NCBI RefSeq assembly: GCF_002843425.1
Contig: NZ_NKXO01000001.1
Location: 1 to 64,000 of the forward strand
Length of the DNA: 64,000 bases
Source: Raineya orbicola
GTDB taxonomy: Bacteria > Bacteroidota > Bacteroidia > Cytophagales > Thermonemataceae
Reading direction: 5' to 3'
Positions 60,005-64,000 of this stretch are shown piece by piece. The translations under genes and the position numbers were made by a program. The stretch's first letter is position 1; each line of letters starts with the position of its first letter. The notes beneath the pieces are model-generated. The model was not told where the DNA came from, did not search any database, and saw only the letters and a list, made by a program, of their open reading frames with translations.

Positions 60005-63000
60005 TTAATAGTTCAGTATGGAACTTAACCATTTTTCAACCTCTTCAACAGACATTTGCTTGCGTTCTGCGTACTCTACGACTTGGTCTTTGCTAATTTT
60101 ACCTAAACCAAAATAACGACTTTCGGGATGGGCAAAGTACATACCGCAAACTGCCGCCGCAGGATACATTGCAAAACTTTCGGTAAGTTGTAAGCCTATT
60201 TTTTCGGTAGCCTGCAAAAGCTCAAAAATAGTAGCTTTTTCGGTATGGTCGGGGCAGGCAGGATAGCCCGGTGCAGGACGAATCCCCACGTATTTTTCCT
60301 TTATCAATTCTTCATTAGTGAAATTTTCATCAGGAGAATATCCCCAAAATTCTTTACGCACACGCTCGTGCATCAGCTCGGCGAAGGCTTCGGCGAGCCT
60401 ATCAGCAAGAGCTTTTGCCATAATGCTGTTGTAGTCGTCGTGGTCTTTTTCGTATTTTTCCACTAATTTTTCAAGCCCTATGCCCGCTGTAACGGCAAAA
60501 AAGCCCATATAATCCACTTGTTCTGTTTCTTGGGGAGCAATAAAATCGGCAAGGGCGAAGTTTGGCAAACCTTCGGATTTTTGATTTTGCTGACGAAGTG
60601 TGTGAATAATTGCCCAATGAGGATTATACACCACCCCCTTCCCCTCCTCAGAGAGGAGGGGCGATGCTTTCTCCACTCCTTTCCAAGGAGGGGTTAGGGG
60701 TGGTTGATTTTTGTACCAACCATAATTATTTTTGATTTCAGCTAAAACACTTTCTATATTTTCTAAAACAAGTTTATTTTCAAAATGCAACACTTTTAAG
60801 CCGAGTTCTGCTAATCGGGTATCGCGGTACAAATCGTATTCCTGACCTACAGGCGAGAAATGTCCTTTGCCGTCCAATTCAATAGCTAATTTCTCTTCGG
60901 GGCAATAAAAGTCTAAAATGAAGTTTTCTACACTATGCTGTCTTCTAAATTTTCGTCCTAATTGCGATTTTTGTAGAAACTTCCACAGAAACTTTTCAGC
61001 TTTAGTAGCCCCATTTCTAAGAGCTTTTCTTTTTGTCTCTAATTCTTTAATATTGGAGATTCCTCCTGTGAGGCGATTTTCAAATATTAGGGGGTGTGAG
61101 TTTTTGAGTAGTAATGGCTTTTTTAGCACTTCATACTTTTTATGAGCGTGTCCGTTATGTTTGGTACAAGGTGTGATAACCTCCGTTTCTTCAAAATCAT
61201 AAAGCAGAATATCATCATCATTGATAGTATTGCAGGGATAAAAACCAATTACTGCATTTGCTTGCAGAGATTTATTTTGAATGATTTCAGCAAGCATTTT
61301 TTGAGCATCTTCGTATAGCTTGCGGGCTTCTGTCCCGACTATTTCATCATCAAGTATTTGAGGGAATTTGCCTGCAAGTTCCCAAGTTTGGAAAAAGGGT
61401 GTCCAATCTATGTATTTGGCAATTTCTGCTAAATCGTAATTGATAAAGTATTTATTGCCTAAAAATTTAGGTTTGTGAATTTGTGTTTTTGCCCAATCTA
61501 TTTTGAATTTATTTTTACGAGCTTCTTGCAGTGAGATGTAATTTTTCTCTTGCTTACGATTGAGAAAATCATTGCGAATTTTGTCGTATTCTTGTTTAAT
61601 TTCTGCAACAAAATTTTCTTTTTCGCCTTTTTGTTTGGAGAGCAATTTAGTTGCCACAGGCACACTACGGCTGGCATCAAGTACGTGGATGACGGGTTCT
61701 GAATAATTGGGAGCAATTTTTACAGCTGTGTGAGCCTTTGAAGTGGTAGCACCGCCAATGAGCAGAGGTATCTTGAAACCTTCACGTTCCATTTCTTTGG
61801 CAACACTAACCATTTCATCAAGGCTGGGCGTAATCAATCCTGAAAGACCGATAATATCTACTTGATGTTTTCGGGCTTCTTCTAAAATTTTCTGTGTAGG
61901 CACCATTACACCTAAATCAATAATTTCAAAGCCGTTGCAAGCAAGTACCACCCCTACAATGTTTTTGCCAATGTCGTGTACATCACCTTTTACGGTGGCA
62001 AGTAAGATTTTGCCAGCCCCCATAGAGTTTTGGTTTTCTTTCTTTTCAGCTTCCATAAAAGGCAACAAATACGCTACGGCTTTTTTCATTACCCTTGCAG
62101 ATTTTACTACTTGCGGCAGAAACATTTTCCCTTCACCAAACAGATCGCCTACAATATTCATTCCGTCCATCAGAGGACCTTCAATAATTTGTAAAGGGTG
62201 GGCATACTTTTGCCGAGCTTCTTCTACATCAGTTTCAATAAAATCGGCAATACCTTTGATGAGAGCGTGAGCCAAGCGTTTTTCTACGGGTTCATTTCGC
62301 CAAGCTAAATCTATTTCTTGCGTTTTTCCACTTTTATTTTTGATTTGCTCGGCAAAAGCCACCAAACGTTCCGTAGCATCAGGACGTCTGTTCCAAAGAA
62401 CATCTTCTACAAGTTCAAGTAAATCTTTGGGAATTTCCTCATAGACAGCAAGTTGCCCCGCATTTACAATGCCCATATCCATACCTGCCTGAATAGCTCG
62501 GTACAAGAAAGCAGAATGCATAGCTTCGCGAACAACATCATTCCCCCTGAAACTGAACGAAATATTACTTACCCCGCCTGAAACTTTGGCGTAAGGTAGG
62601 TTTTTCTTAATCCATTCGGTAGCACGTACAAAATCTACGGCATAATTGTTATGTTCTTCAATACCCGTAGCGACGGTAAGAATGTTGGGGTCAAAGATGA
62701 TGTCTTCGGGAGGAAAACCTACTTTTTCAGTAAGAATTTTATAGGCTCTTTCGCAGATTTGTATGCGTCTTTCGTAAGTGTCGGCTTGCCCTTGCTCGTC
62801 GAATGCCATTACAATGACCGCCGCACCATATTTTTTGATAAGTTTTGCTTTTTTGATGAAATCCTCCTCGCCTTCTTTTAATGAAATAGAATTAACAACT
62901 GCTTTGCCTTGCACGCATTTCAAACCAGCTTCAATGACGCTCCACTTGGAACTATCAATCATAATAGGCAGGCGGGCAATATCAGGTTCAGAAGCAATCA

Positions 63001-64000
63001 GGTTCAGGAATGTAACCATAGCCTTTTCGGAATCTAACATTCCCTCGTCCATATTGACATCTATCATTTGGGCACCGCCCTCTACTTGCGTGCGAGCTAC
63101 CGCCAGAGCTTCTTCATATTTTTCCTCTTTGATAAGGCGGGCAAAAGCCCTTGAACCTGTTACATTGGTACGCTCTCCTACATTGATGAAGCGTATTTCT
63201 TTGGTTGCTTTCAGAGGCTCTAATCCCGAATATTTAGAAATCTCATCATCTTGGGGTAGGGGACGAGGTTTGTATTTTTGGGCAAGTTCGGCAATGAGTT
63301 TGATATGAGCAGGCGTTGTACCACAACAGCCCCCAATAATATTGACAAGTCCATCTTTTAAGAAATCCTCCACAATTTTTGCCATTTCTTCGGGGCTTTG
63401 GTCGTATTCTCCGAAGGCATTGGGCAAACCTGCGTTAGGGTGAGCAGAAGTATAAAAAGGTGCTTTCTTGGCAATTTCTTCCGAATAAGGACGCAACAAA
63501 TCCGCTCCCAAAGCACAATTGAAACCTACTGAAAGCAAAGGTAAGTGGGAAACAGAAATCAAGAAAGCCTCTGCGGTTTGTCCTGATAGTGTTCGCCCCG
63601 AAGCATCGGTAATTGTGCCAGAAACCATTATAGGCAATCGCTTACCTGTTTTTTCAAAATATGTTTCAATGGCAAAAAGAGCGGCTTTGGCGTTGAGTGT
63701 ATCAAAAATGGTTTCAATGAGTAAAATATCTGCTCCGCCGTCTATCAGCCCTCTAATTTGTTCGGTGTAGGCTTCTACGAGTTCATCAAAAGTAATGGCT
63801 CTGTAACCTGGGTTATTGACATCGGGCGAAAGAGAGGCAGTTTTATTGGTAGGACCAATAGAGCCTGCTACAAAACGAGGCTTTGCAGGGTTTTGGCGAG
63901 TAAATTCCTCACAAACTTCTTTGGCTATTTTTGCAGACTGGAAATTGAGTTCATAGACCAAATCCTCCATATGGTAGTCTGCCATAGAAATACGCGTACC
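60005..64000 (-). CDS. metH: cobalamin-dependent methionine synthase with an in-frame insertion (partial, start outside window)
   Basis: The frame is open to the right edge, so the true start lies beyond the window (the ATG at 63985 is internal). Visible domains: homocysteine-binding with the zinc cysteines in NCALG and GGCCGTTP; pterin-binding ([21 protein letters not shown]); B12-binding with the histidine in GDVHDIGKN (residue 670 from 63985); and the activation domain that binds S-adenosylmethionine, with RPAPGYP near 1236-1242. The activation domain is split at codon 935 by an extra 190 residues holding a DUF559 nuclease-type domain, after which it resumes at HTLRQQ (1128). All known catalytic motifs are intact, so the enzyme may still work. 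Confidence 0.95.
60605..61180 (-). mobile_element. in-frame DUF559 nuclease-domain insertion in metH
   Basis: About 190 codons absent from other MetH proteins I know. A leader (about 60 residues, with the NRLTGGISN motif) is followed by a complete DUF559 core, which has the Vsr/PD-(D/E)XK-like fold: [18 protein letters not shown], the Asp in FILDFYC (residue 1025 from 63985), ELDG (Glu 1036, Asp 1038) and GHF. The tail ends in a palindrome cluster (PPLTPPWKG and PLLSEEGKG). There is no intein block and no stop, so it is translated. Junctions are estimated from the host homology; imperfect matches TTATCACAC and TTATTCACAC at the two ends might be a target duplication. Confidence 0.65.
60631..60703. 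repeat. GC-rich palindrome cluster at the end of the metH insertion
   Basis: Two outer arms of 18 bases (631-648 and 686-703 of this kilobase) are inverted copies differing only at three central positions. Inside are a 9-base hairpin CCCCTCCTC / GAGGAGGGG (641-649, 653-661) and a 6-base hairpin CTCCTT / AAGGAG (676-681, 685-690). The composition (CCCCTCC, GGAGGGG) is far richer in GC than its surroundings. Both strands remain open in the metH frame. Confidence 0.8.

Follow-up and report, generated by a model that had tools for sequence, protein, structure and literature searches.

A probable unspliced, in-frame homing-type element with palindromic ends in the methionine synthase of Raineya orbicola

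To persist in conserved genes, homing nucleases are generally assumed to require a splicing vehicle, and they are known in introns and inteins. Members of the EDxHD group around I-Bth0305I usually lie within group I introns or are free-standing, and inteins with a homing endonuclease domain are in-frame nucleases of essential genes that are passed between alleles. Palindromic DNA is also known in frame inside unrelated genes, where it is translated, as in the Rickettsia palindromic elements (RPEs) and the intragenic REPs (PMC10969869, PMC3733652). In REPtrons the gene of a tyrosine transposase (RAYT) is flanked by REPs, which also occur dispersed over the genome.

The insert described here, located in the methionine synthase (MetH) of the hot-spring bacterium R. 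orbicola, has something in common with each of these systems. With the I-Bth0305I group it shares profile-level homology, the fold, the occurrence of filled and empty alleles and a short footprint resembling co-conversion, but the element has neither a self-splicing intron nor an intein, the nuclease would stay in place as a translated domain, the ends are palindromic and no extra DNA-binding region can be recognised. Like inteins, elements of this kind place an in-frame nuclease in essential genes and are passed between alleles, whereas the HINT splicing domain is absent, the host protein appears to retain the insert, and the sites are variable loops. Their palindromes are translated in frame, as are those of RPEs and intragenic REPs; those elements, however, are small, about 150 bp in the case of RPEs, and lack an enzyme gene, whereas a DUF559 nuclease lies between the palindromes here. 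As in REPtrons, the enzyme gene is flanked by repeats that are also found dispersed over the genome, but the enzyme is a Vsr-type nuclease instead of a Y1 transposase, and the genome of R. orbicola (G000) contains no Y1_Tnp. No description of a nuclease-carrying in-frame element was found in the literature searched, which covers only part of the subscription papers, and novelty is therefore not proved; this kind of mobile DNA is apparently undescribed so far.

The window, that is, the whole stretch of 64,000 nucleotides that was analysed, contains the metH frame, which is read from 63985 to 60005 on the minus strand and runs past the window end, so that its true start lies beyond it. The features of the locus are as follows.

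60005 to 63985, minus strand: metH, methionine synthase, one open frame containing the insert (TIGR02082 metH match, 1673 bits)
60614 to 61102, minus strand: in-frame insert in the AdoMet/activation domain of MetH (alignment with the empty allele of G005)
60728 to 61039, minus strand: DUF559 (PF04480) nuclease domain, residues 983-1086 (profile matches E=2.1e-27 and E=4e-26)
60911 to 60913, minus strand: Asp1025, invariant catalytic position (D in 50/50 nested and 15/15 free copies)
60872 to 60880, minus strand: Glu1036-x-Asp1038, invariant catalytic positions (50/50 nested and 15/15 free copies)
60860 to 60862, minus strand: His1042, invariant position (comparison of nested and free copies)
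60671 to 60703, minus strand: REP-like palindrome CCACCCCTAACCCCTCCTTGGAAAGGAGTGGAG (pattern search of the window)
60630 to 60662, minus strand: inverted REP-like palindrome GCCCCTCCTCTCTGAGGAGGGGAAGGGGGTGGT (pattern search of the window)
61062 to 61100, minus strand: probably decayed left repeat, CTCACACCCCCTAATATTTG...CTCACAGGAGG (suggested by a weak score)

The ends of the insert were set against the closest empty allele, the metH of G005, another species of the same genus, which is 94% identical in the adjoining region. Because G005 has a linker of 20 residues where the MetH of the window has 163 (residues 962-1124, 163 codons; net gain about 143), the insert is placed at 60614-61102; the initial annotation had located it correctly, but its extent of 60605-61180 was slightly long at the 5' side. 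The complete DUF559 domain that it reported in frame inside MetH is borne out by Pfam and by the open frame. The PF04480 matches reach 91-97 bits against a curated cut-off of 20.6, the domain divides Met_synt_B12 (the MetH activation domain) into two stretches, and Asp1025, Glu1036 and Asp1038 are present as stated. The two REP-like palindromes, which it had not mentioned, lie at the 3' end of the insert and are inverted relative to each other; a window of this size should contain their pattern 0.01 times, yet it was found twice, both times within the insert. Nor did it mention a second copy in leucyl-tRNA synthetase (LeuRS) and dozens of other in-frame copies. The terminal-repeat score of the window's copy is weak (11, shuffled 7.9), whereas the copy of G002 at the same site scores 34 and has intact repeats. 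As the left repeat of the window's copy appears decayed, the anatomy of the element rests on its relatives. An AlphaFold prediction of the insert-bearing activation domain was too poor to use (pLDDT 51), and no plasmid DNA similar to the window locus was found. In the MetH of G082 (L046) the same loop holds an insert of about 225 residues that is unrelated, matches no Pfam family and is missing from the closely related MetH of G042 (L045); therefore this loop takes other in-frame insertions too.

A gene of the DUF559 type has previously been assigned to the EDxHD homing group (PMC9403480). Profile searches retrieve 3hrl, which is a DUF559-like protein, and also 3r3p, which is the I-Bth0305I catalytic domain (E=3e-6). 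In the AlphaFold model of the domain (pLDDT 89.8) the top two structural matches are again 3hrl and I-Bth0305I (the latter with TM 0.75 on the target), and Vsr is a weaker match (1vsr E=0.017). The window's DUF559 has the fold together with the conserved acidic and His residues of the EDxHD group; in domain numbering Asp46, Glu57, Asp59 and His63 are invariant in all 50 nested and all 15 free copies compared. By these matches, the embedded domain appears to be a relative of the homing endonuclease I-Bth0305I.

Both DUF559 copies of G000 are in frame, one in MetH and one in LeuRS, where it is flanked by two matching palindromic repeats. In the window's family (8 genomes) all eight strong DUF559 matches lie within frames of more than 400 codons. 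The MetH site of the window also holds a nuclease in G002, and in G004 only a palindrome remnant of another type is found there; the MetH of G004 has a DUF559 at a different position, with a nuclease that is 75% identical. Two DUF559 inserts of different subfamilies are present in the single metH gene of G002 (L069), and further copies of the family are located in LeuRS (G004), HsdR (G007) and a DNA methyltransferase (G003). In the order sample, which consists of 195 genomes of Cytophagales, some of them incomplete metagenome assemblies, 50 DUF559 copies lie inside larger frames. Their hosts, named outside the Pfam-checked proteins from our own reading of the sequences, are MetH (3 positions), LeuRS (2), IleRS, AddA, AddB, MutS, HsdR and several DNA methyltransferases, and copies are also found at the ends of PurL, RecQ, QueG and others. 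In other classes of the phylum the hosts are LeuRS, MetH, HsdR, RecG and methylmalonyl-CoA mutase. LeuRS and MetH are the commonest. Spread by phages was considered and rejected, the phage records being restricted to three weak ones.

Other inserts were seen in LeuRS as well. In the Raineya species G000 (L004, 'VLYKEAQAHKRLAEYLL...VEIRSQS...'), G003 and G005 a second insert of about 115 residues follows QGRSNFVY; it is absent in G001, G002, G006 and G007, has no confident Pfam match and is possibly another nuclease-like domain. The LeuRS loop after INQGMI holds differing inserts without family assignment in related species (L051, L081; G027, G042).

The distribution of the copies and the divergence between them bear on mobility. 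When 65 domains were placed in a tree, at least three subfamilies turned out to occupy the MetH linker site, and members of one well-supported subfamily are found both in LeuRS and at two sites of MetH. At LeuRS site A, 4 of the 14 genomes of family f15 are filled and in the remaining 10 the site is cleanly empty, as it also is in G003 and G005. In the two closest filled species, G177 and G169 (incomplete assemblies), the 491 bp element of LeuRS is 98.8% identical and the host gene 89.9% (p=6e-14); at third positions the values are 98.8% and 77.5%, and dS is 0.036 in the insert against 0.45-0.66 in the host. Conservation stops 12 bp left of the element and roughly 55-80 bp right of it. In RecG of G275 and G473 the insert has a dS of 0.035 against 0.43 and 0.41 on its two sides, although host conservation is uneven and the edges of the tract are less sharp than in the LeuRS pair. 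Most pairs at shared sites carry no recent footprint and show normal or higher insert divergence, so the low divergence in these two cases is not simple constraint. Judged from these alignments, the element has been transferred between alleles in both the LeuRS and the RecG pair with short host flanks; it should be noted that any recombination bringing the element into an empty allele would leave a similar footprint. For PurL and AddA, the inserts of a pair differ more than their hosts do, which is what replacement of one element by another would produce. Recent homing was considered for the methyltransferase copy as well (G003 and G021; protein identity 94% against 77%) and rejected: insert and host differ little at the DNA level, and the gap is therefore attributed to protein-level constraint. 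It was not possible to derive a recognition site, since the insertion edges in the loops are blurred and no target duplication was established.

The initial annotation had proposed a selfish, frame-preserving element tolerated in a loop, and this proposal is supported by the recurrent, differently placed copies, the empty sites and the transfer footprints in LeuRS and RecG. The insert is not ancestral and fixed, the window's site being empty in G001, G003, G005, G006 and G007; the acidic residues are not degraded, since all catalytic residues are retained; and free or differently placed copies are abundant.

The ends of the element were characterised by comparing 260 bases on either side of each copy. 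The two sides of one copy tend to be inverted repeats, with a median score of 19.5, whereas mismatched pairs reach 9 (Mann-Whitney p=1.8e-21). Each terminal repeat in turn folds as a hairpin that bears a tag on one side, for example CCTCACCCCCAACCCCCTCTCC-AAA-GGAGAGGGGG. The type of repeat covaries with the type of nuclease, and this holds between taxonomic families too (Mantel r=0.25, p=0.0008). One REP pattern occurs in 42 of the 75 genomes with DUF559 and in 10 of the 120 without it (p=3e-13), and the reversed-pattern control gave one match in 195 genomes. Within Raineya the two species that have that nuclease type contain 12 and 34 copies of the pattern, and the two that lack it contain none. 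Free-standing DUF559 genes with the same kind of inverted-repeat ends were found in the cyanobacterium Pseudanabaena, in Deinococcus and in the alphaproteobacteria Sinorhizobium meliloti, Sphingobium and Azospirillum lipoferum. In some genomes (G033, G050) the repeats are present but DUF559 is not, and therefore loss or another agent is needed there.

Three observations on these repeats are added. The free DUF559 genes L233, L284, L288 and L291, on cyanobacterial, Deinococcus and Sinorhizobium plasmids, bear long inverted repeats at either end, with scores of 57, 54, 102 and 47. A tandem array of REP pairs with a repeated spacer is located in G000 at C8:48918-50296 (L100-L110). Repeats adjoining the Hymenobacter-type copies (e.g. 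L018, L057, L076, L084), and not those of Raineya, carry CGTCAGGC/GCCTGACG, which recalls CGTC-tagged REPs, a group reported to have no transposase; a link of the elements to those REPs is left as an idea.

Passive hitch-hiking is an unlikely alternative. In this reading another agent, such as the RAYT tyrosine transposase, would move the REP-type palindromes with DUF559 as their cargo, and ordinary homologous recombination would account for the footprints. On the one hand, REPs within reading frames are known without a nuclease (PMC3733652), and palindrome-only in-frame inserts occur here too, in the MetH of G004, the LeuRS of G002 and the MetH of G002, where they lie in the homocysteine-binding domain. 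On the other hand, no Y1_Tnp or RAYT gene is present anywhere in the G000 genome, which has the repeats all the same, and RAYTs therefore cannot be the current mover there. Cargo would be expected to lose its catalytic residues, and none of the 50 nested copies has done so; the covariation of nuclease and repeat types also argues against mere transport.

The conservation of the domain could alternatively reflect usefulness to the host enzyme, for example if MetH and LeuRS used it for regulation or to sense DNA damage. The copies are indeed under purifying selection (dN/dS of nested copies 0.02-0.11, where computable), and the same loops are occupied in diverged lineages. Nevertheless, the same domain is found in unrelated enzymes at unrelated positions, most relatives do without it, the copies carry inverted repeats, and at LeuRS site B the domain of G027 has been swapped for another subfamily in G082 (host 94%, insert 50% identical), all of which makes this explanation very improbable. 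Its simplest form, the one-off domain acquisition that was initially offered as an equal alternative, is excluded by the recurrence of the element.

Equally little weight is given to the removal of the insert from the mRNA, or its skipping by the ribosome, by pairing of the inverted repeats at the junction. The long inverted repeats at both ends, visible in the LeuRS copies, could join the junctions in RNA, but the genic copies are in frame and without stops, none of the 109 short-ORF copies splits a known host gene out of frame (in a limited reference set), and no intron family was found at the locus. An intein is rejected because domain searches of the MetH protein detected no HINT self-splicing domain, as had been noted at the outset, and a group I or II intron is rejected because the only matches are below-threshold, microRNA-like ones on the hairpins. 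With neither intein nor intron present, the nuclease would persist as a translated domain; considering the open frame without stops, the purifying selection and the missing splicing domain, the whole protein is presumably translated without removal of the insert by some other route. Least probable of all is a Vsr-like DNA repair or anti-phage nuclease incidentally fused to other proteins: VsrA of Caulobacter, a DUF559 protein, is a proposed mismatch-repair endonuclease (PMC12907096) and the hosts include HsdR, DNA methyltransferases, MutS and RecG, but LeuRS and MetH are the commonest hosts, PADLOC gives only weak matches (the best of them links the LeuRS copy to a 'homing endonuclease' model), and repair would leave the terminal repeats and the transfer footprints unexplained.

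Our results suggest that the insert is probably an unspliced, in-frame homing-type element with palindromic ends, one copy of a widespread mobile family that appears to spread between species while production of the host proteins continues. Its layout would be palindromic repeat, DUF559 nuclease, palindromic repeat; genic copies would be read through in the host frame, with the nuclease kept in a loop where the host enzyme tolerates it. As the LeuRS and RecG pairs show, recombination carries the element from allele to allele together with short host flanks only; we infer that the nuclease drives this transfer. The embedded nuclease could make the starting break, at the empty site or at a cognate palindrome, and the break would be repaired from the element-bearing template. 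The short insertions that consist of a palindrome alone probably represent remnants, non-autonomous derivatives or landing pads. Preservation of the frame would let the element occupy genes that the cell cannot lose. Whether these elements form a new class, homing by a palindrome-bounded nuclease without splicing, resident as a permanent translated domain in essential enzymes and supplying the missing mobilising enzyme of some REP-type palindromes in several bacterial phyla, is a more tentative matter, to which we assign somewhat less than an even chance.

The presence of homing-type nucleases that persist unspliced in aminoacyl-tRNA synthetases, MetH, RecG and others, apparently as parts of working proteins, departs from the expectation that a splicing vehicle is needed. 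It gives a testable function for DUF559, a large family of 'unknown function'. A candidate enzyme is also obtained for the REP-like palindromes, of which one class has been reported without a dedicated transposase (PMC3733652). The copies are also natural examples of where essential enzymes tolerate insertions of 100-200 residues.
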